NCBI GenBank assembly: GCA_017556045.1
Contig: JAFZFF010000003.1
Span: 1 to 39,933 of the forward strand
Origin: Bacteroidaceae bacterium
GTDB taxonomy: Bacteria > Bacteroidota > Bacteroidia > Bacteroidales > Bacteroidaceae
Direction of reading: 5' to 3'
DNA: 39,933 bases
This document shows positions 13,178 to 33,444 of the stretch, in pieces; within the stretch, counting starts at the first letter, position 1; each line of letters begins with the position of its first letter. The notes beneath the pieces were generated by a model. That model saw nothing but the letters and a program-made list of their open reading frames with translations. It ran no database searches and had not been told where the DNA came from. Made by a program: the position numbers and the translations under genes.

Positions 13178-13209
13178 GAATCCAAAGAACCTATATATAA
13201 CTATTGACT

Positions 13210-14724: not shown

Positions 14725-14784
14725 GCGTTAAATAATGCCGCAAAGGTTAAAATTTTTCTTAACGAGAAAAGAGATGCGAATAAA

Positions 14785-14816
14785 TTTGCTTGTATAAAGA
14801 AAGATTTCTACCTTTG
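14785..14816 (+). promoter_or_regulatory. Consensus promoter of the FAS1-SusCD operon
   Basis: TTTG (14785-14788), a 20-bp spacer, and TACCTTTG (14809-14816) match the Bacteroidetes housekeeping consensus. The predicted leader is short, about 38 bp, with no riboswitch-like structure. I see no operator repeats, so control may be by the housekeeping sigma alone or by trans factors. Confidence 0.8.
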
Positions 14817-14858
14817 CCTTATTAATTAGGTTTAATATACATTAACTAATATCAAAAT

Positions 14859-17765
14859 ATGAACAAGAAACACGTTTCAAAGGTGGGCAAGTACATCGGT
14901 ATGGCTTGTCTGTTGTTTGTTTGTGCCACTGTTCAGTCATGTCGTGACGAGTATTACTACGACGACAGAGAACCGGACTTCTTGGGCTCAAGCATTTACG
15001 ACTATCTGGATGAACAAGGTAATTTCACCCACTTCTTGCAGGTGATTAACGACCTTGGAGAGAAAGAAGTGTTGAAGAAAACGGGTAGTAAGACCCTTTT
15101 TGTAGCTGATGACGCAGCGTTCATGCGCGGAATCAAGGCAGAATGGGGATTCGATAGCTATGCCCAGCTTACTCCAGCACACAAGAGAATTATTCTTTAC
15201 AGCGCGATGCTTGACAATGCCTACCTGTTGGAGATGTTGTCAAAGTTGCAGTCTACAGGTATCAACGCTGAGCCCGTGCCGGGTAAGTGTCTGCGTCGCG
15301 TGTCTTCTGCTTCTGTGGTTGACACCATCGGCCTGTTCGCTTACAAGGACCTCCCCAAGAACAATCCGGATTGGGAAAGATTCCGCGATGACAGCGTACG
15401 CTTGGCATTGGATGCTACACAGCCGATGATGTTGCACTTCATTCAGGACTACCTGTACCAGAATGGTATTACCCAAGAGGACTTGGGCGTTATGGTTAAT
15501 GATTTCTCTGCCAATTGGTCTGATATCTATATTTACGACAAGAAGGTAATCAAGGATAGAAGCGATGTGACTTGTAAGAACGGTTATGTTCATCAGTTGG
15601 ATGGTCTTCTTATTCCTCCTTCAAACATGGCCGAGGAGTTGCGTGTGAATGCAAACAAAGACATGCTTCTTACTGGCGAACTTGATTTGGCCGCTTTGAA
15701 GGACAACTATCACACCACGATGCTCTTTAGCCGTATGTTGGATCGTTTCGCAGTACCTGTTCCCATTGATGAGGAGAGTGAGATTGCTGAGACTTTCCAT
15801 CGTCGTTATGTAGCAGAGGGTGTTACAGAACAATTGTACGAGAAGAGATATTACACCGACGGCTCTGAGAGAGGCGCAAAGAAGGAGGATGGTTTCAAGT
15901 CTTATGTCGATGTTGAGGAAAACTTGCACGAGGCTAAGGGTTCACTCTTCTTTGATCCAGGATGGAACGCTTTCAAGGGTACATCAGAACAGAAAGAGAA
16001 AGAGGTAGATATGGCTGCCATCTTTGCTCCTTCTGATGCTGCTGTAATCTCTTTCTTTACTGAATATCCCAGTGGAAAGACCTTGATTGACAAGTATGGC
16101 GTCGGTAAGGGTGTAGTAGATCCTTATGGCACAGGACTCTTGCAGGCTATTGACAGTATCGACCTCGACATCCTTCAGGCTTTGGTACGCAATCACATGC
16201 AGATGTCATTCGTTTCTGCAGTTCCCTCAAAGTTTGAACTCGTGGTTAACGATGCTCGTGACCCCATGAACATCTCAAAGAATGATGTGAGTCACACCAT
16301 CTTGGCCAACAACGGTGTGATTTATGTGATGAACAAGCTTTATCCTCCTGCCCGTTACGAGTCAGTTATTGCTCCCGTAGATTTGGATGACTCGTTGGCA
16401 GTGTTCAATAAGTTTATCGTAGATCTGGATTACGACAAGTATCTCCTCTCTATGGGTAATAAGTTCACACTTATCGCTCCTTCTGATACTTGTATGGTAT
16501 ACTATGCTCCCGACACCGATGTTAAGGGTGGCATAGGTGACCGTGATGCTTACTACTTCAAGAAATCATTCAACAGCGAAGGTAACCTCGTCGTTCAGGC
16601 CTTGGTATATAAGTATAAGCCTGAAACATACAACGTTGAGACCAATACATATACACTGACTAAGGGTTCTAGCACCAGAGAGTTGGATCCCACGAAGTCT
16701 AACCTATTGAAGGAAATCATGGAGTACAACATTGTCTTGGGTGATGTGAACTCTGAAAAAGACCAGAATTCGGGTAAGAAGTACTATATGTCAAAGGGTT
16801 ACGGAACTGTTAAGGTTCAGCGTGGCGAAGATGGGTATGGTCTTGTAACTGGTATCGCAGGTGGTCGCGAACTTCAGAATGGAGCTATGATTCCTATTCT
16901 TGATGGCGACGTGAAGGAGATGAAGAATGGTCAGACCGTGAAGCTCAGAACCTCTATGGTACAGCCTCCTGTACAGTCTGTATACAATGTTCTCTCGACA
17001 ACCCCTGAGTTCCAGGAGTTCTATTCTCTTTGCATGCCCAATCCTGAGGTATTGAAGTATCTCTTGGGTGAAGAGACCGCCAAGGATGAGTGGAATAAGT
17101 ATCGTATCTTCGATAAGAAGACCAATCTTGTTCGCATGTTCGATACCTATCACTATACAGTATATGTCCCCGATAGCACATCACTCTTCCAGGCTTACGA
17201 GCAGGGCTTGCCCAACTGGGAGACTCTTGTAGCGGAGATGACTTATGCTAAGACCGTTACTGACAAAGCAAAGCAAGACTCGTTGAATGCTGATCTCCTC
17301 GCTGGTGTTGAGTTGTTGACAAAGTTTGTTCGTTATCACTTCCAAGATAACTCAGTGTATGCAGATATTCCCCAGCACGTGCTCGAGGTGGAGGGTCAAG
17401 CTCCTGAGTATCAGGTAAACTATGAAACTGCAGCGCTTAACGGCAAGACTGGTCGTTTCTGCTCTGTACTCGTACAATCTGCTGAGTACAATGGCAAGCA
17501 GACTATCGCAGTGCGTGGTGACTTCGGTGAGGATGATAAGGATGATTTGGGTACATGCGTCAATGCTTGTTATGTTGTAAATCAAGACCCTGCGCTCGAG
17601 AACAAACTTTACAATGTGATGACACGTGATATCATATTCAAGGGTAGTCCATCTTGGGATGTTTCTACCTCTTCATATGCTGCTGTTCATCAAATCAATG
17701 GATGCCTTAAGTTTGGTGGCGAAGGTGGTATTTACGATAAAGAAAAGAGTCAATTTATTAGATAA
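14859..17765 (+). CDS. Large fasciclin (FAS1) domain surface lipoprotein, first gene of the operon
   Basis: A 968-residue lipoprotein (lipobox VQSC, Cys28, followed by RDEYYYDD, an acidic stretch fitting surface export). About four divergent FAS1 repeats can be seen. The first (about 45-255) opens SSIYDYLDEQGNFTHFLQVI, with KTLFVADDAAFMR, and closes NGYVHQLDGLL. The second (about 265-505) has AAIFAPSDAAVISFF and NGVIYVMNKLYPP. The third (about 515-715) has DDSLAVFNKFIV and KFTLIAPSDTCMV. The fourth (about 715-955) has HYTVYVPDSTSLFQAYEQG and closes VHQINGCLKF. FAS1 domains mediate adhesion and protein or glycan contacts in other organisms; the ligand here is unknown. The gene starts at ATG 14859, 38 bp after a predicted transcript start, and is followed 11 bp later by SusC. 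It probably serves as an accessory binding protein of the transporter. Confidence 0.9.
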   Translation: MNKKHVSKVGKYIGMACLLFVCATVQSCRDEYYYDDREPDFLGSSIYDYLDEQGNFTHFLQVINDLGEKEVLKKTGSKTLFVADDAAFMRGIKAEWGFDSYAQLTPAHKRIILYSAMLDNAYLLEMLSKLQSTGINAEPVPGKCLRRVSSASVVDTIGLFAYKDLPKNNPDWERFRDDSVRLALDATQPMMLHFIQDYLYQNGITQEDLGVMVNDFSANWSDIYIYDKKVIKDRSDVTCKNGYVHQLDGLLIPPSNMAEELRVNANKDMLLTGELDLAALKDNYHTTMLFSRMLDRFAVPVPIDEESEIAETFHRRYVAEGVTEQLYEKRYYTDGSERGAKKEDGFKSYVDVEENLHEAKGSLFFDPGWNAFKGTSEQKEKEVDMAAIFAPSDAAVISFFTEYPSGKTLIDKYGVGKGVVDPYGTGLLQAIDSIDLDILQALVRNHMQMSFVSAVPSKFELVVNDARDPMNISKNDVSHTILANNGVIYVMNKLYPPARYESVIAPVDLDDSLAVFNKFIVDLDYDKYLLSMGNKFTLIAPSDTCMVYYAPDTDVKGGIGDRDAYYFKKSFNSEGNLVVQALVYKYKPETYNVETNTYTLTKGSSTRELDPTKSNLLKEIMEYNIVLGDVNSEKDQNSGKKYYMSKGYGTVKVQRGEDGYGLVTGIAGGRELQNGAMIPILDGDVKEMKNGQTVKLRTSMVQPPVQSVYNVLSTTPEFQEFYSLCMPNPEVLKYLLGEETAKDEWNKYRIFDKKTNLVRMFDTYHYTVYVPDSTSLFQAYEQGLPNWETLVAEMTYAKTVTDKAKQDSLNADLLAGVELLTKFVRYHFQDNSVYADIPQHVLEVEGQAPEYQVNYETAALNGKTGRFCSVLVQSAEYNGKQTIAVRGDFGEDDKDDLGTCVNACYVVNQDPALENKLYNVMTRDIIFKGSPSWDVSTSSYAAVHQINGCLKFGGEGGIYDKEKSQFIR

Positions 17766-17776
17766 ATATAAGTATC

Positions 17777-20700
17777 ATGAAAGTTTATAAGTATATTCTA
17801 CTGACCGTTCTTTGCTTCGTAGCATCTGCCGTCAAGATTAATGCGCAGCAACGTATCTCTGGTCAGGTAAGTGACGAATTAGGACCGTTGATGATGGTTA
17901 ACGTGGTCGAGGTGGATAAAGACGGACGTTTTATCAATCACGCTACTACTGACTTCGATGGTAACTTCACAATGATTGTGAAGAACAATAAGAATAAGTT
18001 GAAAATCACTTATGTGGGTTTCAAGGATGAGCTCCTTGAGATTGGTGATCGCACCGTTTTCAATGTGGTGATGAAGGATGAGAACCTCATTCAGGAGGTT
18101 GTGATTCAGGCTAAGCCTCGTACAAACTCCGGTGGTCTCAACATCCTTGAGCGTGAGGTCTCTGTAGCGAAGCAGACCTTTAAGATGAGTGAGATGGAGG
18201 GTCTTTCGTTTGCCTCTGTCGACGAAGCTCTTCAGGGACAGATTGCCGGTCTTGACATCGTGTTCAACTCGGGTGACCTAGGTGCAGGTACTCAGATGCG
18301 TCTGCGTGGTACCTCTACCATCGGTGGTAACCAGGAGCCTTTGATCGTGGTGAACGATAATATCTTCGAGATGCCCGATGGTGAAGATTTCGACTTCTCT
18401 ACTGCCAATGAGGAAAAGTTTGCTCAGCTTCTGACCGTAAACCCTGACGATATCGAGAGCATTGAGGTATTGAAGGATGCTTCTGCTTCGGCAATCTATG
18501 GTTCTCGCGGTTCTAATGGTGTTATCATGATTAAGACCAAGCGTGGATCTCGTGGTAAGACAAAGGTGACCTATTCATATCGTTACTCTAACGCTTGGAT
18601 TCCTAAGGGATTGAACCTCCTTTCTGGTGATGACTATACCATGCTTCTTAAGGAGTCACACTTCAACCCTACACAAAGTAGCACGGCGTCTGATGCGGAT
18701 GAGTTGTCATACGACAAGAACTTCTCTGAGTATGCTAACTACATCAATAATACCAAATGGGTAGAGGAAATTTCTAAGCATGGTCATACCCACGATCATA
18801 ATATCTCACTCAATGGTGGTGGTGAAAAGGCTACTTTCCGTATCTCTGGTGGTTACTATACACAGAACGGACAGATTATCAAGCAGAACCTTGACCGATT
18901 CACTACTCGTATGGCTTTGGACTATTTCGTGTCTGACCGTATTAAGGTGTCTTCTGACTTCTCATTGACCTATACGAACAATGATCAGAACTACGAAGGA
19001 CTCTTGGCCAACGCGCAGATAATCATGCCTAACATGAGCGTTTATTCGCAGTATTTCTTGGATCCCAATGACCCCAATTCTCTTGTGGTTACAGACGACT
19101 ACTATCTCATGCGTCAAGATGCATGGAACAAGTTTGACGGAAACCAGAAGAATATCGTGAACCCCGTAGCTATGGGTAATCTGGCGTGGAAGAACGAGAA
19201 GAGCTATCGTATCTCTCCCCAGATCTCGCTTGACTATCAGCTCTTGGGACTTGAGCATGACCAGACTCAGCTCCGTTACTATGGTATGGTGTATATGGAC
19301 GCAAGTACCTTGTCAAACTCTTCGTATCGTCCTGGTAGCTTGACTAATAAGGGATTTGCCGATGCTAGCTATAATGCTACTTCTGTAAACGACAATAAGA
19401 CTTTGTCATTCAACACTCGTCATCGCTTGACTTTCACTCCTCATTTCGAGAACGAAAATCACATGCTTACCATGATGGGACAGTTTGAGTTGACCTCAGG
19501 TAATGGTAATAGCCAGAGCTCAAGCTCTTATGGTGTGCCTACTGGTATTACAAGTACAACGGTAGGTACATACCTCAGCGGTAGCTCTACCTCTACTTGG
19601 CAGTGGCGTTCAGTTGCTATGGTTTACTCTGCTGTATATTCTTATATGGAGGGACGCTATAGTGCTACGGCTACTCTCCGTCGTGACGGTAGTACCAAGT
19701 TTGGTGCTAATAACCGTTGGGGTAACTTCCCTGGTCTCTCTTTCCGTTGGAACATCATCGACGAGCCTTGGATGCAGTGGGCAAAGGACAATGCTAAGTT
19801 GAGCATGCTCTCATTCCGTCCAGGTTGGGGTATGACAGGTAACCAGCCTGGTGCTGAGTATCTGCACTACACCACATATGACACTAAAGGTCAATACATG
19901 GGAATCACATCTATCGCACAAGGTGGTTTGATGTTGACAGACCTCAAATGGGCTAAGAAGAGCGAGTATAACCTCGGTGCCGACTTCGGTTTCTTCAATG
20001 ACAAACTTACCGGTGGATTCAACTACTATGACAACACTACATCAGATCAGTTGATGGGTGGCTATGCTATTCCTTCTTCAAATGGTTACACTTCATTGGC
20101 TTATAAGAATACCGGTGCTGTGCGTAACTATGGTTGGGAATTGAATGTCAATGGTAATAAGTTCCTTGAGTTTGGTAAGTTCTCAATCAGTGCCTATGCC
20201 AACGTATCGCAAAACTTCAACACCATTCTTGAAATGGAGGAGAGTATCTTGAACAATGCGAACTCAGACTTTGACTATAACAACGGCTCTTACCTCTCTC
20301 GTATCCAGATTGGTAATCCCTTAGGTTCAATCTACGGATTCAAGTTCAAGGGCGTTTATCGTAACAACTACAATGTGTCTTGGACTCCTCAAGATTGGGA
20401 AAATGCCCGTCTGAAGGCTGCAGAGCAAGGTTATGAGCTCCATGACCTTTATCCCGTAGCTTGTGACAACCAAGGCAACACACTTTATGGTAGTGATCGC
20501 AAGCCTTTGCGTATGGTATATAACTATAAGGATGGTCAGGCTACTTATCCCTTCCGTGGTGGTGATGCTATCTACGAGGATATCAATAACGACGGTAACA
20601 TCAACGAACTTGATATCGTATACCTTGGTAACTCTAACCCCAAGCTTCAGGGTGGTTTCGGTTTGACATTCCAGTACAAGCGCTTGTCTTTGAAGACTCA

Positions 20701-21127
20701 GTTTACCTATCGTTATGGTGTGGATGTAATCAACTCTGCACGTATGAACGTTGAGAATATGTATACCAACAACAACCAGAGTTTTGCTGTAAACTGGCGT
20801 TGGAGAAAAGATGGTGACGTTACCATGATGCCTCGTGCATTGTATTCAACAGGTTACAACTGGTTGGGTAGTGACCGCTATTTGGAGGATGCTTCATACC
20901 TTCGTATGTCATACCTGCAGCTCTCTTATTCGGTAGATCCCAGTGTATTAAAGAAGTATGGTCTCAATCAGCTCTACCTCTCAGGTTCTGCTAACAACCT
21001 CTTCTTCCTCACCAAGTACACAGGTCTTGACCCCGAAATCGGTGCAGACAACTGGGGACGTGCTTTTGATGGTTCGAAGACACCTCGTTCACGTTCGTTC
21101 ACATTGTCAATGACTGTAGGATTCTAA
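17777..21127 (+). CDS. SusC-like TonB-dependent outer-membrane transporter (first copy)
   Basis: A 1116-residue protein with signal peptide MKVYKYILLTVLCFVASAVK, cleaved near residue 23 (INA/QQ). A CarboxypepD_reg-like domain follows (about 26-100: ISGQVSDELGPLMMVNVVEV and DFDGNFTMIV). A TonB-box-like QEVVIQ lies at 106-111. The plug domain is at about 145-257 (ALQGQIAGLDIV, MRLRGTSTI, IESIEVLKDASASAIYGSRG). The 22-strand barrel takes up the rest and ends in the aromatic SMTVGF. A calcium-loop-like DINNDGNINELD occurs late in the barrel, as in many SusC proteins. It imports a substrate bound by the SusD lid, driven by TonB. The lid gene is 22 bp downstream. The substrate cannot be deduced; no degradative enzyme is encoded in the operon. 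Confidence 0.96.
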   Translation: MKVYKYILLTVLCFVASAVKINAQQRISGQVSDELGPLMMVNVVEVDKDGRFINHATTDFDGNFTMIVKNNKNKLKITYVGFKDELLEIGDRTVFNVVMKDENLIQEVVIQAKPRTNSGGLNILEREVSVAKQTFKMSEMEGLSFASVDEALQGQIAGLDIVFNSGDLGAGTQMRLRGTSTIGGNQEPLIVVNDNIFEMPDGEDFDFSTANEEKFAQLLTVNPDDIESIEVLKDASASAIYGSRGSNGVIMIKTKRGSRGKTKVTYSYRYSNAWIPKGLNLLSGDDYTMLLKESHFNPTQSSTASDADELSYDKNFSEYANYINNTKWVEEISKHGHTHDHNISLNGGGEKATFRISGGYYTQNGQIIKQNLDRFTTRMALDYFVSDRIKVSSDFSLTYTNNDQNYEGLLANAQIIMPNMSVYSQYFLDPNDPNSLVVTDDYYLMRQDAWNKFDGNQKNIVNPVAMGNLAWKNEKSYRISPQISLDYQLLGLEHDQTQLRYYGMVYMDASTLSNSSYRPGSLTNKGFADASYNATSVNDNKTLSFNTRHRLTFTPHFENENHMLTMMGQFELTSGNGNSQSSSSYGVPTGITSTTVGTYLSGSSTSTWQWRSVAMVYSAVYSYMEGRYSATATLRRDGSTKFGANNRWGNFPGLSFRWNIIDEPWMQWAKDNAKLSMLSFRPGWGMTGNQPGAEYLHYTTYDTKGQYMGITSIAQGGLMLTDLKWAKKSEYNLGADFGFFNDKLTGGFNYYDNTTSDQLMGGYAIPSSNGYTSLAYKNTGAVRNYGWELNVNGNKFLEFGKFSISAYANVSQNFNTILEMEESILNNANSDFDYNNGSYLSRIQIGNPLGSIYGFKFKGVYRNNYNVSWTPQDWENARLKAAEQGYELHDLYPVACDNQGNTLYGSDRKPLRMVYNYKDGQATYPFRGGDAIYEDINNDGNINELDIVYLGNSNPKLQGGFGLTFQYKRLSLKTQFTYRYGVDVINSARMNVENMYTNNNQSFAVNWRWRKDGDVTMMPRALYSTGYNWLGSDRYLEDASYLRMSYLQLSYSVDPSVLKKYGLNQLYLSGSANNLFFLTKYTGLDPEIGADNWGRAFDGSKTPRSRSFTLSMTVGF

Positions 21128-21149
21128 TTACACGTAAATAATTTAAGCT

Positions 21150-23039
21150 ATGAATAACGATAAAAGAATAATCGCTCGTGTAGCCCGCACCTTCAAGACA
21201 TTGCTCTTGGGCGCGATGGTAGCTATGACATGCTCGTGCGAAGATTTCCTCACGATCTCTCCTACAGATAAGATTGTATTGGAGGATTTCTGGAAGAGCA
21301 AGGCCGATGTAGAGAATGTAGTTGCAGAAAGTTACCGATTGATGACACAGTTCGATGTGCTCTCTCGCGTAATCGTATGGGGTGAACTGCGTGGAGACAA
21401 CGTAGTAGAGGGCAACTATGGTGGAAACAATGATATCAAGAATATCATGGAAGCCAACCTCCTCCCTACCAATTCATATAACTCTTGGGCTCCTTTCTAC
21501 AAAATCATCAATAACAGTAATATTGTTCTTAAGTATGCCCCTGGTGTTCTTAATGAAGACCCTGATTTTACACAAGGTGACCTTGATGTTGTGTCAGGTG
21601 AAATGTTGGCTTTGCGTGCACTGTGTCACTTCTACTTGGTGCGTACATTCCGTGACATCCCCTTGCTGACTGAGGCAATGGTAGATGACAGCCAGAATCT
21701 GTATCAGTTGCAGGTTTCACCTATTGTGGCTTTGGATAGCTGTTTGGCAGACTTGAAGAGAGCTGAGAACCTTGTCCTCACCACAGGTAACTATCCTGAC
21801 GATAAGAATCCTGTGGAGAATCGCAACATGGGTCGCATCACCAAGGACGCTGTGCGTACAATCATTGCTGATGTTTGTTTGTGGAAGGCTGCCTTCTTGA
21901 CACAGCAAGCTGGTGGTGATGCATCGGCTGCCATGGAGTGGTACAACGAATGTATCAACTATTGTGATGTAGTGCTCAATACTCGCATGAAATATGCACA
22001 GAAGTACATGGAGGAGAATCGCAACAATACTGTTGTGCTCAATGAAAAGTATCCTATTCTTTACCCTTCTGATGCTAATGAAGGATATTCATATAAGGAT
22101 CGATTCCCCCACATGCCCTACATGATGATGTATGCTGGTGGATATAACGGATGTAATAATCCCGTGGAGAGCATCTTTGAATTGCAACATACAGAAGAGC
22201 AGGGGGCAGGTAACTATGAAGTTCCTTACTTCTATTCTTACTCTGACGACGGTAATGCTTGTAAGGTAGGTATGCTTTCAGCTTCTCGTCACCTCTCATT
22301 GATGGGTAAGGGACGTTTGTATTGGCGTACCGACTTCCGCCGTGTAAATAATGTCTTCTCACAAGCCAATGCGGGTGAGGATTTGGATAAGTACATTATC
22401 ATCAAGTATGCTCACTACAGTGCCAGCGAGAATCGTGATAACGTAGATAGCGAATACAACTTTGGTAAGATTAGCTATAAGTTCTCACAGCACAACACTG
22501 GTGGTGGAATGAAGTATTACTCAGGTGATAACAATCGCGGTAAGGTCAATTGGATGATTTATCGCATCAGTGATGTGATGCTGATGAAGGCCGAGGCCTT
22601 GGCATTGCGCAATGCTGGCGGTGATGCTGAAGAGGCACGTAGCATCGTGAAGGCGATTTACAATCGTTCTCAGACAGGCTATATGAATGGTCCATCTAAA
22701 GTGGGAATTCTTGATGCTAAGCAGGATGATTTCGATCTCTTGAATGCCGATAAGACTGTGATGCAGCTTGTTCTTGACGAGCGTCAGCGCGAATTGGCTT
22801 TTGAGGGTAAGCGTTGGTACGACTTGGTACGTGTGGCATTGCGTGATAATAGCACTTCTAATATGTTAACTATGTTTGTCGACAAGAAGTACGAAGGCAC
22901 CAGCACCGAGCAGTACTCTTCTAAGATGGCGACTTTGGATCACCTCTTCTTCCCCATCGCAGAGAACGAGCTGAAGACCAATCCTGGATTGATTCAGAAT
23001 AAAGCTTACGAGAAGGCGAACGAGATTGAAAAGAACTAA
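21150..23039 (+). CDS. SusD/RagB-like lipoprotein, partner of the first SusC
   Basis: A 629-residue surface lipoprotein (lipobox region MTCSC, probable lipidated Cys30, then EDFLTISPTDKI). Family signatures are GEMLALRALCHFYLVRTFRD near residues 150-170 and, near the C-terminus, LVLDERQRELAFEGKRWYDL. The product should form the helical lid on the SusC barrel and capture ligand. It is somewhat longer than typical SusD (about 530-580 residues). It starts 22 bp after SusC and 19 bp before the next FAS1 gene, clearly in one transcript. Confidence 0.96.
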   Translation: MNNDKRIIARVARTFKTLLLGAMVAMTCSCEDFLTISPTDKIVLEDFWKSKADVENVVAESYRLMTQFDVLSRVIVWGELRGDNVVEGNYGGNNDIKNIMEANLLPTNSYNSWAPFYKIINNSNIVLKYAPGVLNEDPDFTQGDLDVVSGEMLALRALCHFYLVRTFRDIPLLTEAMVDDSQNLYQLQVSPIVALDSCLADLKRAENLVLTTGNYPDDKNPVENRNMGRITKDAVRTIIADVCLWKAAFLTQQAGGDASAAMEWYNECINYCDVVLNTRMKYAQKYMEENRNNTVVLNEKYPILYPSDANEGYSYKDRFPHMPYMMMYAGGYNGCNNPVESIFELQHTEEQGAGNYEVPYFYSYSDDGNACKVGMLSASRHLSLMGKGRLYWRTDFRRVNNVFSQANAGEDLDKYIIIKYAHYSASENRDNVDSEYNFGKISYKFSQHNTGGGMKYYSGDNNRGKVNWMIYRISDVMLMKAEALALRNAGGDAEEARSIVKAIYNRSQTGYMNGPSKVGILDAKQDDFDLLNADKTVMQLVLDERQRELAFEGKRWYDLVRVALRDNSTSNMLTMFVDKKYEGTSTEQYSSKMATLDHLFFPIAENELKTNPGLIQNKAYEKANEIEKN

Positions 23040-23058
23040 TTCGTAATAATAGTAAGAT

Positions 23059-25140: not shown

Positions 25141-25170
25141 TAGGAGTCTAATATTAATACACAATAAGAT

Positions 25171-26943
25171 ATGAAAAGAAAATATATAAATAGTATCTTG
25201 GTAGGTTGTGCCTTGTGTGCTTTCTCGGCTTGTACCGATGTGTGGGACGAGCATTATCAAGCCAACAAGCCAATACCAGGACAGGAATCTGCCGATAAGA
25301 ACCTCTGGGAGTTGATTAGTGCAGATCAGGACCTTGAGGAGTTTGCAGCACTCTTGCAAGCAACAGGTTATCACGAGTTGTTGATGCAGAATCGTTGTTA
25401 CACTGTGTGGGCACCTGCTGATGGCTCAGGATTTATCGATGTAACTCTTCTCGAGAATGCCTCTAAGGAGGAGATAGAGAGCTATAAGAAGCGTATTGTT
25501 GAGAATCACATTGCAAACTTCAATCACGCAGCAAGTGGTATCCGCGATAAGGAAGACCGCAAAAACTACGAGATGATTGAGATGCTCAATACTAAGAAGT
25601 ACGACTTCGAAGGCAAAAAGGCTGGTGAATACACCTTTGATGGTTTGGATTTGCAGCAAGAGAACATCGTAGCAAAGAATGGTGTCCTTCATAAGTTGGA
25701 TGGCTATGTAAGTTTTGCTGCCAATATCTGGGAGACTTTGGGTGATGAGGGCTTACGTACCGACGAGCTTGGTATCAGTGAGTTGTGGAACTTCTTGAAG
25801 AAGGATTTCAAGAGTGAGTTCAATCCCGCAGCTAGTGTTCAAGGTCCCGTTGTTGATGGTCAGGTTACATGGCTCGACTCTTCGTTCACTGAGTCTTGCC
25901 GCTGGTTCGGTGAGATTGGTTGGCTGGATCGTGAGGATAGTTCATATACCATGTATGCATTGACCAACCGTGCTTGGGGCGAGATGTATGAGATGACCAA
26001 AAAGTATTATGCTTATCCTTTCGGCATGAAGACATTGCCTGCTAAGGGTAGCATGAGTGCAGAGCAAGCTACAGATTCTATTGTTAAGGACTTGATGGTT
26101 CGCAACTTGGTATTCAGCAACACCGTGAACAAGAAGTTCTTTGATGGTGTAAAGGATACGCTGATTTCAAACTATCGCTACGGTTATCAAATCTTCGAGA
26201 ATGAAGAGGCACATGCTTTGAGCAACGGCTTGGTGGGTGAGCCCTTCGAGTTGAGTAACGGCTCATTGTATATCGTAGATGAGGTCAATTATAATCCCAT
26301 GTCTATCTGGCACGACACATTGCGTGTCGAGGGTGAGTTCTTGTCTGATGCAGATGAAACACGTGTAGGCTTCAAATCTGTAAATAAGACAATGCATATC
26401 ATACATCGTGACAGTCTCTATCATGATTCGTTCTCAAGTCATGGTGTAGGTGTATTCGAGGCTTTTGCTGGTCAATACAATCCTGAGTTCCATTTCTATG
26501 TGGATAACGTGTTATCTGCATACTATGACATTAAGCTTGTGTTGGTTCCTGCTAAGGTGATTGAGCCCTATGACTCTACACTGTTTATCAAACCCAATAA
26601 GTTTGCTGCTCGTTTGTACTACAACGATGGTCTGTCTTCTAAGAACATAGAGTTGAGAACAGAAGCAGGAGATAGCATCTTCTTCTCTGATCCTACAAAA
26701 ATCGATACCATTGTATTGGCAAAGAATTTCTTTGTTCCCGTTTGTGAGTTCGACCTTAAGGGATTGAGCGGAAGCATGCCTCAGACAAGGGTGTTTATCG
26801 AGTCAAAGATTGAATTTGGTTCGAACCGTGTTCCCAAAGAGAACAATGGTAACGATAGAGATAGCACCAAGTGGATGTATGACAACCACTTCCGTATCGA
26901 CCAGCTCATATTCGAGCCTGTCGTAGATCCTACGGTTGAATAA
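25171..26943 (+). CDS. FAS1-domain lipoprotein, third of the operon
   Basis: A 590-residue lipoprotein (lipobox FSAC, Cys21, then TDVWDEHYQ). FAS1 unit one covers about 45-185 (NLWELISADQDLEEFAALLQ, CYTVWAPADGSGFIDV, NGVLHKLDGYVSF). Unit two covers about 195-385 (SYTMYALTNRAWGEMYEMTK, NGSLYIVDEVNYNP). The remaining ~200 residues form a beta-rich tail similar in layout to the C-terminus of the previous gene (GVGVFEAFAGQYNPEFHFYV). Its size, domain order and immediate neighbour suggest it and the preceding gene are diverged paralogues. It lies 30 bp after one FAS1 gene and 30 bp before the second SusC. The ligand is unknown. Confidence 0.88.
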   Translation: MKRKYINSILVGCALCAFSACTDVWDEHYQANKPIPGQESADKNLWELISADQDLEEFAALLQATGYHELLMQNRCYTVWAPADGSGFIDVTLLENASKEEIESYKKRIVENHIANFNHAASGIRDKEDRKNYEMIEMLNTKKYDFEGKKAGEYTFDGLDLQQENIVAKNGVLHKLDGYVSFAANIWETLGDEGLRTDELGISELWNFLKKDFKSEFNPAASVQGPVVDGQVTWLDSSFTESCRWFGEIGWLDREDSSYTMYALTNRAWGEMYEMTKKYYAYPFGMKTLPAKGSMSAEQATDSIVKDLMVRNLVFSNTVNKKFFDGVKDTLISNYRYGYQIFENEEAHALSNGLVGEPFELSNGSLYIVDEVNYNPMSIWHDTLRVEGEFLSDADETRVGFKSVNKTMHIIHRDSLYHDSFSSHGVGVFEAFAGQYNPEFHFYVDNVLSAYYDIKLVLVPAKVIEPYDSTLFIKPNKFAARLYYNDGLSSKNIELRTEAGDSIFFSDPTKIDTIVLAKNFFVPVCEFDLKGLSGSMPQTRVFIESKIEFGSNRVPKENNGNDRDSTKWMYDNHFRIDQLIFEPVVDPTVE

Positions 26944-26973
26944 TTTGTTGGACAAAGCTAATAAATAAAGACA

Positions 26974-29900
26974 ATGAAAACATACAATAAATTTATGCAG
27001 ATTCGTTTGGCTGTATTCATGGTGTTTGCAGCGCTCTCAATGGGAGTGGTTCCTGTAAATGCGCAGAATAATGCGGCTACCGCTAGCCAGCAAGATGAAG
27101 TGGAAGAGATCGTAGGTACAGTGATTGATGCTGTGACCAAGGAGCCTATTGCCGGTGTTCGTGTGGAAGCACTCGGAAACAATCGTTACACCGCCATGAC
27201 CAAGGTGGATGGTATCTTCTCTATCAAGGTTCCTAGGCATGTGGTGTCCCTTTATGTGTCTACTCCAGGATATGAGAGTGTAATCATCAAGGCACGTCAG
27301 AATAAGGCTATCACTGTGGCTCTCTATAGTGAGGACTTTAGCTCTTACGTTGAGAATGGTTTTGACGTTACTTCTGTAGGCGAAGCCGTTATTGATATGG
27401 CTAAGTCTACCACCTTTGAGACAGAGTTGCAGAAGCAGCTCGGTGCTCAGGTTCGCACGGTGACCCGCTCTGGTACGGTAGGACTTGGTGCGTTGATGAC
27501 AATTCAGGGTATCAATACGCTGAATTCATCGGTTCAGCCTCTCATCGTATTGGATGGTGTGATTCAGGACTTGCAGGATGGCTATGCAGCGATGCATGAT
27601 GGCTTCTTCAATAATACCTTGGCGGCTATTGACGTGAATGATATTGAAAAGATTACTGTCCTCAATAATGCTACTTCTATCTACGGTGCTCGTGGTGCTA
27701 ATGGTGTTATTCTTATTGACACAAAGCGTGGACATAGCATGGCTACTCGCATCGATGCTCAGGCTTTTGCTAGCTATTCGATGAAGCCCCGTCTGCCACA
27801 GATGATGAATGCTGAGCAGTATCGTATCTATGCCAATGAGTTGATGGGAAGCTATGGATATACCTCTGAGGCACTCTCTAAGGTTCCTTTCCTCTCTGAT
27901 GACAAGAGCAAGTATTACTACAACACGTATCACAATGACACTAACTGGGCAACAGATCCAGAGAATGGCGTCTATCAGAATGCTGTTGCGCAGAACTATC
28001 GCGTAAATGTACAGGGTGGTGACGAAGCTGCTATGTATAACTTCTCTCTCGGATTCTCTGATGGTGCAAGCACAATCAAGAGCAATGACTTCAATCGTTT
28101 GAACATTCGTTTCAATACAGACGTGAACTTGGCTAAGAATCTCGATACTCGCTTTGACATCGCTTATAGCCGTATTGCACGCGACTTGCGTGACGATGGT
28201 ATCCGTGAAGATCTCACAGCAGGCCCCGTTGTATCACCTGGTTTCTTGTCGCTCATCAAGTCTCCTTTCCTCTCTCCTTATACTTATAATAATAAGGGTC
28301 AGTTGACAGGTGCGCTTTCTGCAGCAGACAGCTTTGCTCCTGGCACAAATAACAGCTTTGCAAACCCCTTGTCTATCTTTGAGTATGGTGATGGTAACAA
28401 TAAGAACAATCAAGAGTACACAGTGTTCAATGTTACTATCGCTCCGAAGTTGACTTTAGGTAAGGGTTGGGCTGTATCTACACTCTTCAACTATACGTTG
28501 CATCGCACAAGTGAGAAGTACTTCCGTCCGATGACTGGTACTCCAGTGTTCTACATCGAGGGTCTTGGACGTTCTGAAAATGAGGTTCGCTCATTCTTCT
28601 CTAAGGAGGAGGAGCTCTACTCTGATACTCGTGTGTCATGGGATAAGCACCTTGGTGGACATACCTTCAATGCATTCGGAGGTATCCGTTACTCAAACTT
28701 CGCTTATGACTCAAACTACGCATCATGTCACAATACAGGTAACGACAAGTTGCCCGACGTAAAGTCTGAGTATTCTTATGCTAAGACTGATGGTGCATAT
28801 GACGTATGGCGCAACCTTAGCTACTATGCCAACTTGGATTATAACTATCGCAATAAGTATTACTTGCAAGGTAGCGTAGCTGCTGAGACCTCTTCACGCT
28901 TCGGTCGTGACACGAACGATGGTATTAAGTTGGGCGGTGTATGCTGGGGTGTGTTCCCCTCATTGCAGGCTGGATGGTTGGTTTCATCTGAAGATTTCTT
29001 CAATGTTGCTCCCATCAACTATTTGAAACTGACTGCAGGTGTCGATTGGTCGGGTAATGACAACATCAGCAATAGCGCAGCATTCTGCTACCATGAGAAT
29101 GTGAAGTATTCTGACAAGTCTATGGGTCTTGTGCTGGGTAACATTGAGAACCAATCAATCCAGTGGGAGACAACACGTCGTATGAATGCAGGCTTTGACC
29201 TTCAGGCATTCAATAACCGTCTGAGATTGACTGCTAATGTGTTCAGTAACGCTACAAACAATCTCCTGACTTTGAAGAAACTTGATCCTTTGGCTGGTCT
29301 TGAATATGCATGGTCTAATGGTGGTGCTCTGCAGAACAATGGTGCTTATGCTGCAGCTAACGTGAGAGCGGTGAATACCAAGAGCTGGAAGTGGGAAGTA
29401 GGTGCTAGTGTTGGTACTTACAAGAATGAGATTACTGAACTCCCTGACCAAACTATTGTCAATAAAAACTGGACCAAGAAGGATGGTGAGCTCCGCGGAT
29501 ATACAACCGATATCTATGGCGCAACAATCCTTACCGCTGTAGGTCAATCTGCAGGTGTTTTCTTTGGCTATGAAACAGAAGGTGTGTTTGCAACAACAGC
29601 TGAAGCATGGGATGCAGAGAAGGGTGACTGGCGCTTGAAGACTCAAGATGTAGCTACAGGTGTTCTCACTCCGTTTGAGGCTGGCGATGTTAAGTTTGTT
29701 GACCAAAATGGCGACGGCATGATTAACTTGGATGACCGCGTGATCATTGGTAACCCCAATCCTGATTTCTATGGTAACATCAGCAGCAATCTGACCTTTA
29801 AAAACCTTTCGCTCAGCGCTACTGTAAACTACTCTCTTGGTAATGATGTTTATAACTACCAGCGTGCTCTGCTCGAGAGTGGTAGCAGTTTCTATAATCA

Positions 29901-30249
29901 GACAGTAGCCGTTACCAATCGTTGGAAAGTTGAGGGACAGCAGACTGACATGCCTCGTGCATCGTATGGCGACCCCAAGGGTAACAACCGCTTCTCTGAC
30001 CGTTGGATCGAGGATGGCTCATATCTCCGTCTGAAGGATGTGACTCTCTCTTACAAGGTGCCCGTATCGGCTTCATGGCTCCAGGGTCTCACCGTATGGT
30101 GTGCAGGTACAAACTTGTTGACATTGACTAACTACTTGGGCAGCGATCCTGAGTTCTCATTCAGCAACAATGTATTGTATCAAGGTATCGACAATGGGTT
30201 GCTCGGCCAAAGCCGTAGCTTCCATGTAGGTGTGAAGATTAACCTCTAA
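26974..30249 (+). CDS. SusC-like TonB-dependent outer-membrane transporter (second copy, atypical N-terminus)
   Basis: A 1091-residue protein with a signal peptide cleaved near residue 30 (VPVNA/QNN). A spacer and a CarboxypepD_reg-like domain follow (about 45-117: EIVGTVIDAVTKEPIAGVRV and KVDGIFSIKVP). Between this domain and the plug, the usual EVVVVGYG-type TonB box is not visible (SYVENGFDVTSVGEAV instead). The plug carries TIQGINTLNSSVQPLIVLDG and DIEKITVLNNATSIYGARG. The barrel contains QNGDGMINLDDRVIIGNPNP. The terminal residues are VGVKINL, ending in Leu rather than the usual aromatic. It is only distantly similar to the first SusC, so the two are unlikely to be recent duplicates. It shares the leader AATAAAGACA-ATG with the SusD that follows 25 bp later. 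Confidence 0.95.
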   Translation: MKTYNKFMQIRLAVFMVFAALSMGVVPVNAQNNAATASQQDEVEEIVGTVIDAVTKEPIAGVRVEALGNNRYTAMTKVDGIFSIKVPRHVVSLYVSTPGYESVIIKARQNKAITVALYSEDFSSYVENGFDVTSVGEAVIDMAKSTTFETELQKQLGAQVRTVTRSGTVGLGALMTIQGINTLNSSVQPLIVLDGVIQDLQDGYAAMHDGFFNNTLAAIDVNDIEKITVLNNATSIYGARGANGVILIDTKRGHSMATRIDAQAFASYSMKPRLPQMMNAEQYRIYANELMGSYGYTSEALSKVPFLSDDKSKYYYNTYHNDTNWATDPENGVYQNAVAQNYRVNVQGGDEAAMYNFSLGFSDGASTIKSNDFNRLNIRFNTDVNLAKNLDTRFDIAYSRIARDLRDDGIREDLTAGPVVSPGFLSLIKSPFLSPYTYNNKGQLTGALSAADSFAPGTNNSFANPLSIFEYGDGNNKNNQEYTVFNVTIAPKLTLGKGWAVSTLFNYTLHRTSEKYFRPMTGTPVFYIEGLGRSENEVRSFFSKEEELYSDTRVSWDKHLGGHTFNAFGGIRYSNFAYDSNYASCHNTGNDKLPDVKSEYSYAKTDGAYDVWRNLSYYANLDYNYRNKYYLQGSVAAETSSRFGRDTNDGIKLGGVCWGVFPSLQAGWLVSSEDFFNVAPINYLKLTAGVDWSGNDNISNSAAFCYHENVKYSDKSMGLVLGNIENQSIQWETTRRMNAGFDLQAFNNRLRLTANVFSNATNNLLTLKKLDPLAGLEYAWSNGGALQNNGAYAAANVRAVNTKSWKWEVGASVGTYKNEITELPDQTIVNKNWTKKDGELRGYTTDIYGATILTAVGQSAGVFFGYETEGVFATTAEAWDAEKGDWRLKTQDVATGVLTPFEAGDVKFVDQNGDGMINLDDRVIIGNPNPDFYGNISSNLTFKNLSLSATVNYSLGNDVYNYQRALLESGSSFYNQTVAVTNRWKVEGQQTDMPRASYGDPKGNNRFSDRWIEDGSYLRLKDVTLSYKVPVSASWLQGLTVWCAGTNLLTLTNYLGSDPEFSFSNNVLYQGIDNGLLGQSRSFHVGVKINL

Positions 30250-30274
30250 TGAAAACTATTAAAAAATAAAGACA

Positions 30275-32083
30275 ATGAAAAGCAAATCAATTATAGCGGC
30301 ACTGCTTGCCGTCTTTACATTGGGTGTGACTACCTCTTGTGAAGATATGTTTAGCATTGACTCTAATCGTGTGGTCTTGGAGCATGAGATCAACACCTCG
30401 GCCGACTCTGTATATACAACTTTGGGTGTATTGCAGTGTGTACGCAAAGTAGCAGACCGCTACGTGATTCTCGGTGAGGCACGTGGTGATAATGCCCAAA
30501 TCGATGAGAAGCGTACCAAGACTTCGTTGCGTAACTTAGCTAATTTTGAGTTTGAGGATGAGAACGAATACCTTAACGTGAGAGACTACTATGCAGTTAT
30601 CAATAACTGTAACTACGCATTGGAGCACATGGATAAGGATTTGAAGCTCAATAACAAGCCTGTACTCATGGATGAGTATGCAGCACTGCTGGGTATTCGT
30701 GCATGGACCTATTTGCAATTGGCAATTAACTACGGAAAGGTGCCCTATTATACCTATCCTGTAGTTACTGAGGCTGATGTAGAGAGAGCTTATTCAGATG
30801 AGCCAAAGGATATCGTGGCTATTGCTGCAGACCTTGCTCCTCAGTTGGTCCCCTACTTGGATGAGGAACTTCCCACCTTTGCAGCTACTGGTGTTGTGTA
30901 TCCCCAGTTGCGTTTGGTGCTCGCTGAATTGTATCTCTGGAGTGGTGATTATGAGAATGCAAAGAAGTATTATGAGGAGTATTTCATGAAGAATGAAAAG
31001 TTTGAGCTCAAGATGAGCGATGACAATGGTACTGTGATGCAGGCTGGCTATCTTGAGTTTGGTGGTGCCTTCGCTACATGGGATGGTAGAACTCCTAAAG
31101 GTGATCTTTTACCCACGTTTACAGTATCTACTCCTAATGACACTAAGAAGGAGGCTGATATGATTTCAGCTATCACAATGGAAACATCGAGCGCTAGCGG
31201 TACTGTTTCTGAGGTAGCAAACCTCTTCCGTCAAGGCTACTTGCTCCCTTCTGCTTCATGGAAGTCTCTCTGCAATGCGCAGCAGGTATTCCTTGTAACA
31301 GAAACAGCTGCTGACAGCAAGCGCACACTCAACTCTACAGACAAGGTCGGTGACATGCGTAAGTATGCTTACACGACGACTAGTCGTTTCTTTTCTACTG
31401 CAGATGATGGTCTAGAAGAGGCTGAGGAAAAGCTGATCTTTACAAAGCACAAAGAGGGACGTATCGTGACACAACGCTCGTCTATCGCTTGCTTGCGTTG
31501 GGCCGAGGCTATGAATGCGTTGTCAAGACAACAGTATGCTGTAGCAGCTGACTCTGCTCAGTATGCTCAGGCTCGTATGAATGCAATGAACGCATTCTAT
31601 TTGCTCAAGGATGCCTTTAAGGTGTTCTTCCCCGAGGGCAGCGAGGTGGCTAAGAACTTCGAACGTTTCCATGACATCATTGATCCTGCAAAGAATGACC
31701 TACAGAAGATGTATGTAGGTATCCATGGTAGAGGTACTGGTGACGTATACTACGATGATAAGTATTACGTGCTGACTCCTGAGGTTATTGGTCAGCGTTT
31801 GAATAAGGAGCCTATAGACGTTACATTCAACGATACAGTACAGTTTATCGATGAGCTTATTATCGACGAGTTGGCTCTCGAGAGCACTATGGAGGGTAAT
31901 CGATTTGGTGACTTGATTCGTTTTGCAAAGCGTCGTCAGGCATGGGGAGACAGCGAGTATCGCGATTTCCTTGCTCTGCGTGTTGCTAACAGAGGTGGCG
32001 AAGAGGCTGAAGCTGAGGAACGTGATGCTCTCTATAATAAGTTGAGCGGCTCTGAGGAGTATTGGTATCTCCCCTTCAAATAA
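30275..32083 (+). CDS. SusD/RagB-like lipoprotein, partner of the second SusC
   Basis: A 602-residue lipoprotein (lipobox TTSC, Cys22, then EDMFSIDSNRVVLEHE). SusD features are LLGIRAWTYLQLAINYGKVP around residues 147-166 and LIIDELALESTMEGNRFGDL near the C-terminus. The end, EEYWYLPFK, fits the common SusD close. It differs strongly from the first SusD, arguing for two separate transporter pairs with different ligands or roles. It is the last gene of the operon; a terminator starts 20 bp after its stop. Confidence 0.94.
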   Translation: MKSKSIIAALLAVFTLGVTTSCEDMFSIDSNRVVLEHEINTSADSVYTTLGVLQCVRKVADRYVILGEARGDNAQIDEKRTKTSLRNLANFEFEDENEYLNVRDYYAVINNCNYALEHMDKDLKLNNKPVLMDEYAALLGIRAWTYLQLAINYGKVPYYTYPVVTEADVERAYSDEPKDIVAIAADLAPQLVPYLDEELPTFAATGVVYPQLRLVLAELYLWSGDYENAKKYYEEYFMKNEKFELKMSDDNGTVMQAGYLEFGGAFATWDGRTPKGDLLPTFTVSTPNDTKKEADMISAITMETSSASGTVSEVANLFRQGYLLPSASWKSLCNAQQVFLVTETAADSKRTLNSTDKVGDMRKYAYTTTSRFFSTADDGLEEAEEKLIFTKHKEGRIVTQRSSIACLRWAEAMNALSRQQYAVAADSAQYAQARMNAMNAFYLLKDAFKVFFPEGSEVAKNFERFHDIIDPAKNDLQKMYVGIHGRGTGDVYYDDKYYVLTPEVIGQRLNKEPIDVTFNDTVQFIDELIIDELALESTMEGNRFGDLIRFAKRRQAWGDSEYRDFLALRVANRGGEEAEAEERDALYNKLSGSEEYWYLPFK

Positions 32084-32102
32084 TCATTGATTAATAGTTG
32101 AT

Positions 32103-32150
32103 GAAAGGCTGCTCCGAGCCAAGCTCGTGAGTGGCCTTTCTTTCATTTTT
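32103..32150 (+). terminator. Terminator of the FAS1-SusCD operon
   Basis: The outer stem GAAAGGC (32103-32109) pairs with GCCTTTC (32134-32140), and the inner stem CGAGC pairs with GCTCG. The sequence TTTCATTTTT follows. This is a bipartite but convincing intrinsic terminator 20 bp after the last SusD. Confidence 0.85.
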
Positions 32151-32212
32151 CCTTCTCTTCCGGATTAGTACACAAATATTTTTCCAAGTCTACAAAAATA
32201 TTTTTCTCTATA

Positions 32213-33385
32213 ATGAAACGATATTTTATACTGATTCTGTTCTTTATATCACTGGTCTTGAATGTAGGGGCTAAGGATTTTATTGTGATGATTGATGCTG
32301 GTCATGGAGGAAAAGATCCAGGTGCTGTAAGTGCCAATGGTAAAGTCCGTGAGAAGGATGTGACACTAAAAGTCGCCTTGCTCGTAGGTGATGCAATCGC
32401 TGCAAGATATCCCGAAGTGAAGGTGTTGTATACTCGAAAGACAGATAAGTTTGTAGGTGTGAGTGAACGAGCTCGTATGGCCAACAAGGCTGGCGCAGAT
32501 CTTTTTATCTCCATTCATGTCAATGCTGCAGAAAATCGTTCAGCAAAAGGGGCCGAAACCTATACCTTGGGGGTGGAAGAGGCTCGTACAGAGCGAAGCC
32601 TTGAAGTTGCAAAGCGTGAGAATGGTGTTATTCTTCTAGAGGAGGATCATGAGAAGACTTACGCAAACTTCAATCCTAATTCCCCGGAGAGCTATATTAT
32701 ATTCGAGTACATGCAAAGTGAGTTTGTGAAGGAGAGTATTCATCTAGCCCAATATGTGCAGGAAAACTTTGCTAGTGATGCCAATCGCAAGGATCGAGGA
32801 GTACGTCAAGCTGGATTTCTTGTGCTTAATGCTACTTCCATGCCCAGCATTCTAGTCGAATTAGGCTATGTGAGCAATGCTGAAGAAGCGAAGTATCTAG
32901 CAACCTCTTCAGCTCAGCAACGATTAAGCAACTGCATCAGCAAAGCTTTTGACCGGTATTATGCCGATTTGGTGAAGCTAAAATCCGCAACATCTGGTAC
33001 TGAAGTTTCGAATGCTGTGCGAACGTCAACAGAACAATCGACTTCGGTCAATCCTTCTTTACAAGACGTACAAGAGCGTGTGTCAATATCTGATGATGCA
33101 ACAAGCGCCGATGCTCCAATATTTAAGGTGCAGATCTTTTCATCTTCAAAACTATTGGCAAATGGAGATGGGGCTTTCAAAGGACTTAGTCCTGTGTCCT
33201 ATTATGAGGAAAAAGGGCTTTACAAATACACATACGGTTCGTCTCCTAACTATAACGAAATCCTTCAGATTAAACGCAAGGTGAATGAGAAGTTTAAGGA
33301 TGCTTTTGTTGTTGCGTTCATTAAGGGAGAGCGAGTAGATACCCAGCAAGCTATTGCTCTTTTTCGTAAGTATAATTCGCAATAG
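32213..33385 (+). CDS. N-acetylmuramoyl-L-alanine amidase with C-terminal SPOR-like domain
   Basis: A 390-residue periplasmic cell-wall hydrolase that cuts the bond between muramic acid and the stem peptide, as needed for daughter-cell separation. A signal peptide (ILILFFISLVLNVGA) is followed by an Amidase_3 domain to about 253. DAGHGGKDPGAV has zinc ligand His31, REKDVTL has Glu47, SIHVNA has His102, and ILVELGYVSN has catalytic Glu216. After a Ser/Thr-rich linker (about 255-305) comes a SPOR-like domain (FKVQIFSSSKLL, YKYTYGSSPNYNE, FVVAFIKGERV), which targets denuded glycan at the septum. It starts at ATG 32213 with almost no room for a leader after an A+T-rich block. It is followed 59 bp later by the MCE gene, probably one operon. 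Confidence 0.95.
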   Translation: MKRYFILILFFISLVLNVGAKDFIVMIDAGHGGKDPGAVSANGKVREKDVTLKVALLVGDAIAARYPEVKVLYTRKTDKFVGVSERARMANKAGADLFISIHVNAAENRSAKGAETYTLGVEEARTERSLEVAKRENGVILLEEDHEKTYANFNPNSPESYIIFEYMQSEFVKESIHLAQYVQENFASDANRKDRGVRQAGFLVLNATSMPSILVELGYVSNAEEAKYLATSSAQQRLSNCISKAFDRYYADLVKLKSATSGTEVSNAVRTSTEQSTSVNPSLQDVQERVSISDDATSADAPIFKVQIFSSSKLLANGDGAFKGLSPVSYYEEKGLYKYTYGSSPNYNEILQIKRKVNEKFKDAFVVAFIKGERVDTQQAIALFRKYNSQ

Positions 33386-33444
33386 GCTCTGAGATAAAAA
33401 ATAGAGGAAGTTGGGGATATGTTACAATTTAAAAGGATTATCTG

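Follow-up and report, generated by a model that had tools for sequence, protein, structure and literature searches.

Two SusCD pairs, three FAS1 lipoproteins and no neighboring enzyme: a Bacteroidaceae operon that probably derives from the rhamnogalacturonan I import core

What does a bacterium do with an operon that encodes two complete SusC/SusD transporter pairs and three fasciclin (FAS1) lipoproteins, with no enzyme or regulator gene beside it? The question is raised by positions 14785-32150 of contig JAFZFF010000003.1 (GenBank assembly GCA_017556045.1) of a Bacteroidaceae bacterium; the whole stretch that was analysed, positions 1 to 39,933 of the forward strand (39,933 nucleotides), is called the window below. 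SusC is a TonB-dependent channel, SusD is its hinged lid, and accessory lipoproteins concentrate the glycan. The window operon shares a SusC/SusD pair and accessory surface lipoproteins with the classical Sus system (SusCDEF, SusG and SusR), but it has FAS1 proteins instead of SusE and SusF, two pairs, and no adjacent amylase or regulator. We consider it likely, with a probability of about 0.72, that the operon is an enzyme-free derivative of the core with which Bacteroides and Phocaeicola use the plant pectin rhamnogalacturonan I (RG-I): a two-transporter importer, probably constitutive, of oligosaccharides made available by others, whose ligand is possibly no longer RG-I.

The seven open reading frames (ORFs) of the operon all lie on the plus strand. 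The first is FAS1a (14859-17765), a lipoprotein of 968 aa with a Fasciclin domain, followed by the TonB-linked outer-membrane transporter SusC1 (17777-21127; 1116 aa) and the SusD/RagB lipoprotein SusD1 (21150-23039; 629 aa). Two further FAS1 lipoproteins, FAS1b (23059-25140; 693 aa) and FAS1c (25171-26943; 590 aa), precede the second pair, which consists of the TonB-linked outer-membrane transporter SusC2 (26974-30249; 1091 aa) and the diverged SusD/RagB lipoprotein SusD2 (30275-32083; 602 aa). The operon is Sus-like in that its SusC/SusD pairs are encoded together. Plug and CarbopepD_reg_2 were found in both SusC proteins and SusD families in both SusD proteins, all above the Pfam cut-offs; the NCBIfam model TIGR04056 matched SusC1 with 657 bits and SusC2 with 568 bits, and trees agree with the assignment of all four.

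The gaps between the genes are, in order, 11, 22, 19, 30, 30 and 25 bp. A Bacteroidota-type promoter (14785-14816, plus strand; TTTG-N20-TACCTTTG) lies 74 bases 5' of the FAS1a start codon and fits TTTG-N19-21-TAnnTTTG exactly, a pattern with five matches in the window against 0.26 expected and none inside the operon. A scan for E. coli-type promoters, which returned 34 sites against 36.1 in shuffled sequences, was set aside and the Bacteroidota consensus used. At the other end stands an intrinsic terminator (32103-32140, plus strand), a hairpin followed by a U-rich run, with -28.8 kcal/mol and a z-score of -6.24; none of 200 shuffles was as good, and the list from a simple terminator scan does not contain it. 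A preceding interpretation of this DNA, made without database searches (the sequence-only reading), had described seven genes with 11-30 bp gaps between one promoter and one terminator, and judged by sequence they do form one transcription unit. It had also noted that no enzyme or regulator is linked, and this holds. In a Pfam scan of the window ORFs, neither an enzyme nor a regulator gene adjoins the operon, and the nearest ones seen are more than 10 kb away on the minus strand: an ECF (extracytoplasmic function) sigma factor gene at 765-1364 and, at 2759-4531, a gene whose product is a GH27 alpha-galactosidase with a domain resembling a carbohydrate-binding module. One hybrid two-component system (HTCS) query had no match in the 14.9 kb upstream and 7.8 kb downstream of the operon.

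The FAS1 assignment is firm for the three accessory proteins. Pfam Fasciclin scored above its curated cut-off in FAS1a, FAS1b and FAS1c (36.7, 47.4 and 35.6 bits) and matched 35/35, 48/48 and 44/51 of their aligned family members. Each had been described as a multi-FAS1 lipoprotein; the domain is there in all three, but the multiplicity is less certain: Pfam resolves at most one FAS1 stretch per window protein, and two in the FAS1b and FAS1c homologues from Phocaeicola. The three are homologous to one another by profile comparison. Profiles of the genus type and the Bacteroides type align with hhalign at E-values of 4e-62 (FAS1a), 1e-72 (FAS1b) and 1e-48 (FAS1c), the window proteins being 13-22% identical to the Bacteroides-type FAS1 proteins aligned. 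The domain DUF5108 is matched in 16 of 48 FAS1b family members and has no Pfam match in window FAS1b, but an hhalign alignment of nearly the whole length shows homology between the C-terminal part of this protein and the DUF5108 part of its Bacteroides-type relatives. AlphaFold predictions are confident for both FAS1b (predicted local distance difference test, pLDDT, 89.2; predicted template modeling score, pTM, 0.84) and FAS1c (pLDDT 85.3; pTM 0.80). PDB searches with Phocaeicola FAS1c and SusD2 gave no matches. Lipobox cysteines accompanied by acidic residues were recognised by eye in FAS1a (Cys28, CRDEYYYDD), SusD1 (Cys30), FAS1b (Cys22), FAS1c (Cys21) and SusD2 (Cys22), of which an automated lipobox pattern caught FAS1a, FAS1b and SusD2 only; these features would place the FAS1 lipoproteins at the cell surface.

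Is the arrangement peculiar to this genome? The sequence-only reading had proposed a search for the same gene order, and it brought together 71 loci with at least four of the seven genes, a non-random sample picked via FAS1c, SusC2 or DUF5108 matches. The full order is present at 53 of them, a contiguous part at 12 and the order with small changes at 6, counted on all ORFs since longer antisense ORFs mask some genes. Duplicate records (L055-L062, L065, L073) were left out, as were three generic SusC entries that had passed a loose score limit for the SusC tree (L067, L069, L083); of the places with DUF5108, 17 of 28 in the family sample and 6 of 11 further ones in another genus were fetched. 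The 12 partial loci are mostly clipped by the end of a contig or region. The changed ones are L043, with SusC1 in two frames; L053, lacking FAS1b; L151, with several genes in pieces; L116 and L150, where FAS1c is unmatched by the model; and L142, where FAS1a scored as FAS1c. The carriers belong to the window's ruminant-gut Bacteroidaceae genus, Prevotella, Phocaeicola and related genomes, and include Phocaeicola coprophilus An818, two Prevotella metagenome-assembled genomes (MAGs) and ruminant-gut Bacteroidaceae MAGs.

Within the genus, FAS1c has matches in 17/19 genomes (16/18 without the window's own); outside it, there were none in 6 genomes from other genera of the family and one, weak, among 16 genomes from other families of the order. 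SusC2, searched with E-values up to 1e-100, has 52 places in 17/19 genus genomes, with two to six places per genome in 15/19. A FAS1 gene adjoins SusC2 at 50 of the 52 places; at the other two (G006:C211 and G004:C236) the contig edge where the locus starts falls within SusC2. The sequence-only reading had named merely occasional adjacency as a refutation, and in the genus this is not what is seen. In named genomes, a pattern scan using SusC2 gave 47 loci encoding a relative; FAS1 genes of the operon kind occur in the 11 with 46% identity or more and in L066, L070 and L073 at 26-31%, and the family models found none at the other 33.

Some variants were seen along the way. FAS1b is present in three tandem copies within the clade-A operons (defined below) of one genus branch (L026, L027, L028, L029). 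In L030, one of the 12 partial loci, SusD1, SusC1 and FAS1a would be expected at the place of a 1611-aa protein (11933-16768) that bears an F5/8 type C domain; the first half of the operon, which it replaces, was not found there. Three lone FAS1b genes, 44-46% identical to window FAS1b, lie on contigs C50 and C23 of the window's bin (L011:5048-7075; L013:8984-11092 and 17889-19922). The 18-20 kb seen contain no SusC or SusD of the operon kind, and the L011 gene has a GH92 gene beside it on the opposite strand.

The seven proteins have travelled together. In the trees of all seven proteins, built from 44 complete loci, the same six groups reappear and take in 42 of the loci; the groups had been defined from the SusC tree, and the smallest consists of two loci. 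Pairwise-distance correlations among the proteins are 0.92-0.99 over these 44 loci, and again 0.92-0.99 within the genus (28 loci). Such joint inheritance over many loci makes a stable multi-protein complex likely. The SusC proteins are the best conserved, with median distances of 1.45-1.74 against 2.9-3.5 for FAS1 and SusD, about a twofold difference. SusC1 (60 sequences) and SusC2 (74, one of them, from L070, entered twice) are each monophyletic and form sister clades with support 1.0; SusD1 (63; support 0.988) and SusD2 (73; 1.0) are likewise each monophyletic, and are united with support 0.97. The outgroups, about 30 other SusC and 26 other SusD proteins, came from the SusC2 search, so nearer SusC proteins possibly went unsampled. 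Each of the four clades holds both genus-type and Bacteroides/Phocaeicola-type members. Over the best aligned parts, SusC1 and SusC2 are 27% identical and SusD1 and SusD2 26%. The trees rule out a recent duplication of the pairs, as had been suspected from their divergence, and the simplest reading is an ancient duplication of a FAS1-SusC-SusD module.

Why should such a cassette be connected with RG-I? The evidence comes from the neighborhoods of its relatives. We surveyed flanks of varying length with 13 marker proteins, which is not a general enzyme search, and counted PL11, PL9, GH28, GH105, GH106, CE8 and SASA as pectin-specific; the PL9 of L142 was added from a Pfam scan. Of 23 loci of the Bacteroides/Phocaeicola type, six of which come from the window's own genus (G005, G016), 12 have a pectin-specific enzyme in the flank seen. 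The seven genes of P. coprophilus An818 (L073/L104) have the same order as in the window and differ by a PL11 rhamnogalacturonan lyase 618 bp 3' of the operon; FAS1b there carries DUF5108, and GH28, GH105 and other markers are at most 14 kb away. Downstream of L107/L108, from the same genus code as P. coprophilus, are a SASA esterase, GH106, GH28 and GH88/105. Immediately 3' of the L142 operon is a gene for a PL9 lyase that carries 'Rhamnogalacturonan lyase BT_4170-like, C-terminal' (Pfam; BT_4170-like_C), L144 has a PL11 gene next to the operon on the 3' side, and L130 a pectinesterase. A paralogue within the window's genus, which we call clade B, also has seven genes in the window's order and differs by a PL11 gene (1512-1522 aa) 219-285 bp upstream at 4 of 5 informative loci (G011:C105, G013:C26, G001:C6, G007:C44).

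In the excerpts of the literature available to us, the B. thetaiotaomicron RG-I locus comprises BT4145-83 (PMC3243724), and BT4164-69 are given as SusC/RagA, a DUF5108 protein, hypothetical proteins and a TonB receptor, the DUF5108 protein being named in a table row (PMC10434189). RG-I is bound by BT4167 and cut by BT4170, and its products are imported by BT4164/65 and BT4168/69 (PMC8002723, in the part available). Two SusCD pairs together with a DUF5108 protein thus make BT4164-BT4169 resemble the window architecture, as far as those parts of PMC10434189 and PMC8002723 describe it; the window differs in having its own consensus promoter and in that neither a lyase nor an HTCS or glycosidase gene lies in the flank tested. 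By gene order and numbering, FAS1a would correspond to BT4163 and FAS1c to BT4167. Because pectin enzymes, including PL11 and a PL9 of 'BT_4170-like' type, flank 12 of the 23 Bacteroides-type loci, we would file the operon with the transport and glycan-binding core of this locus, BT4163-69, a numbering that is partly our own deduction. Since the cassette forms the core of a locus type already known, it is no new kind of system. The sequence-only reading had seen a difference in kind from known Sus loci; this is not supported, given that Phocaeicola and Bacteroides-type genomes have all seven genes in identical order. The window copy does depart from a complete RG-I polysaccharide utilization locus: no PL9, PL11 or glycosidase gene is adjacent, and PL11 was not found in the 78% complete genome.

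Two protein families met in these neighborhoods deserve a mention. The PL11 protein encoded just upstream of clade-B operons (L122:511-5046; homologues in L123-L125) also has passenger-associated-transport repeats in L122, the one member scanned. Another family recurs near Bacteroides-type operons (L108:9923-12037, L111, L113, L114, L147, L151); three members, of 703, 705 and 587 aa (the last one cut short), gave no Pfam match when scanned. The family may represent a pectin enzyme that has escaped recognition.

The window copy belongs to what we call clade A, which has a fixed setting. A PD40 beta-propeller protein gene (13204-14724 in the window, plus strand) has homologues upstream of clade-A operons, eight including the window's own, and N-acetylmuramoyl-L-alanine amidase and mlaD genes (32213-34332, plus strand) follow downstream in the clade-A relatives compared as well. 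At 18 clade-A loci, the flanks seen yielded no pectin-specific marker. The closest relatives of the window's genome (G000) are G014 and G006, by the tree and by SusC2 identity (80%), and in these three genomes PL11, GH28 and the L-rhamnose isomerase RhaA were not found. All six sister genomes (G002, G004, G007, G011, G013, G015) have the three markers. Of two genomes that lack a SusC2 match, G008 yielded none of the three and G010 no RhaA. GH106, searched in the window's genome only, was not found there. As to expression, the full promoter consensus is present at the same position in the window, G014 and G006 among nine clade-A loci tested; the other six deviate at one of the 10 consensus bases, the -33 box reading TTAG.

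On this evidence we propose that the three FAS1 lipoproteins at the cell surface would bind glycan and pass it to the two SusD lids, each of which would shut over its own SusC channel, and that oligosaccharides would then enter the periplasm by TonB-driven import, as is expected of the SusCD family. Expression is probably constitutive and without a dedicated regulator, because the single promoter is of housekeeping type. Since no lyase or hydrolase was seen beside the clade-A operon and the lineage yielded no PL11, GH28 or L-rhamnose isomerase, the operon most likely serves to scavenge soluble oligosaccharides that other bacteria set free. As for the present ligand, the family speaks for RG-I and the missing rhamnose isomerase speaks against it; in the window lineage the ligand has quite possibly moved elsewhere. 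Capture of a ready-to-import ligand, an earlier suggestion, fits the enzyme-free context, and we found no positive evidence for the peptide, metal complex or host adhesion target then named.

Several points weigh against this account. The link with pectin enzymes is not universal, for at 11 of the 23 Bacteroides-type loci the flank seen is free of pectin-specific markers, and the DUF5108-bearing form is limited to 20 of 301 sampled genomes of the family and 10 of 80 from one other genus. The connection to B. thetaiotaomicron runs through DUF5108, PF16380, BT_4170-like_C, gene order and papers, not through direct sequence comparison. The upstream flank of the clade-A loci is at least 13 kb in eight, 8.1 kb in one and at most 2.1 kb in nine, and the downstream flank at least 7.8 kb in five; five of the loci have GH2-like matches 8-13 kb away. 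'Scavenging' is an argument from absence and 'constitutive' one from a consensus match, and 44 of 49 operons over all groups lack the exact consensus upstream of FAS1a, with five having it. The missing RhaA and GH106 weaken RG-I as the present ligand of the window's genome, and the lineage genomes are incomplete (62-78%). The bin itself probably holds contigs of a second species: contigs C78 and C89 carry a second operon and a partial third operon that resemble other species of the genus more than the window copy does, and C89 (L012) also has a second dnaA (75% identical) and ribonucleotide reductase gene (95%) with its part of a clade-A operon; we treat C89 as foreign and C78 as uncertain. 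Finally, FAS1 domains are known mainly for adhesion or protein binding.

How far has the ligand moved? One possibility, which we hold tentatively and at somewhat less than even odds, is that the system has been exapted to another ligand, such as a different oligosaccharide, a glycopeptide or a host or bacterial glycan, with the two-SusCD architecture kept. The absences just described agree with this, as does the place of the operon beside cell-envelope genes. Within-lineage distances are about 2.0-2.5 times those among sister genomes for FAS1a, FAS1b, FAS1c and SusD1 and about 1.5 times for the SusC proteins and SusD2, against 0.9-1.2 times for the flanking PD40, amidase and mlaD, a comparison of three lineage genomes with four to seven sisters. 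The multiplication of SusC2-type places in the genus is also compatible, although the three in the window's genome include the foreign and possibly foreign contigs. Against exaptation stand these small samples, an mlaD tree that splits the lineage, and outgroup distances that show no contrast between operon and flanks (ratios of 1.02-1.47 and 1.30-1.37); nor is any particular ligand indicated. In its fullest and similarly tentative form, the lineage might have lost RG degradation and rhamnose catabolism and kept the seven-protein machine at its fixed place, enzyme-free and constitutive, with the FAS1 and SusD proteins reshaped for a new ligand. If so, FAS1 would be a general and evolvable surface binding class for SusCD systems, parallel to SusE and SusF.

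It is less probable, roughly a one-in-four matter, that this is an ordinary RG-I/pectin uptake operon whose enzymes lie elsewhere in the genome and were missed through incomplete assembly. Related genomes do keep PL11, GH28 and RhaA mostly at other loci (present in 15, 15 and 14 of the 19 genus genomes), their clade-A operons likewise lack pectin markers in the flanks seen, and the window's genome, 78% complete, has one GH88/105 gene. On the other side, the three markers are absent from the searches of all three lineage genomes: under simple independence, the chance of missing one single-copy gene in all three is about 0.03 and that of missing three unlinked genes about 2e-5. The same lineage also shows the faster divergence of the binding proteins.

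An adhesin or host-interaction complex built on a Sus scaffold, as the sequence-only reading had ventured, is improbable, and no positive evidence for it was found. FAS1 mediates adhesion in animals and has been proposed for bacterial contact with hosts (PMC6032426, in the part available), and the solved structures matched by FAS1b include periostin and TGFBI. But FAS1 is a generic fold, and such matches say little about the ligand; the FAS1 genes are co-inherited with two complete SusCD pairs, pectin enzymes flank the Bacteroides-type homologues as counted above, and the matching B. thetaiotaomicron locus contains an RG-I-binding protein, according to the excerpt of PMC8002723. Just as improbable is a peptide importer of the RagAB type, which has a SusC/SusD-type pair, but one only and no known FAS1 partners: RagA is among the matches of both SusC proteins, yet it ranks below two other SusC homologues in each case (SusC2, 3.8e-86 and 1.4e-45 against 6.2e-33; SusC1, 5.1e-84 and 2e-60 against 2.9e-52), matches this remote do not predict a ligand, no peptidase is adjacent, and relatives are often near pectin enzymes.

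In the literature searched, we found no description of FAS1 proteins arranged with SusCD pairs; FAS1 domains seem to be hardly discussed as SusCD partners, though they belong to the core of a well-studied pectin locus. Within that literature, three things are new: three FAS1 lipoproteins and two SusCD pairs as a conserved unit, the multiplication of this unit in the genus, with up to six SusC2-type places per genome, and a form without enzymes, apparently constitutive, that seems to outlast the pectin pathway. Sister lineages with and without the enzymes offer a natural experiment on the same machine, of use for understanding how gut bacteria shift from degraders to scavengers and how SusCD ligands change.

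A few observations concern the wider window. On the 5' side the operon is preceded by the genes for PFOR (pyruvate:ferredoxin oxidoreductase), DUF6057 and PD40, and the amidase-mlaD genes are followed by dnaA and ribonucleotide reductase genes, a setting shared by relatives; PD40 and amidase-mlaD lie outside the transcription unit. GC content is 44-46% in the operon, 40-43% beyond its 3' end and 51-61% over the first 12 kb of the window; a horizontal island was considered, and the syntenic position in relatives speaks against recent transfer. Phase variation was considered too, and no inverted repeats of 18 nt or longer were found in 14000-33500 (seed 13). The ribonucleotide reductase of the window (36626-39184) is 95-96% identical to those of L056, L060 and L065, in sharp contrast to the nearby dnaA, a few kb away, for which identity to the same three is only 73-76%.

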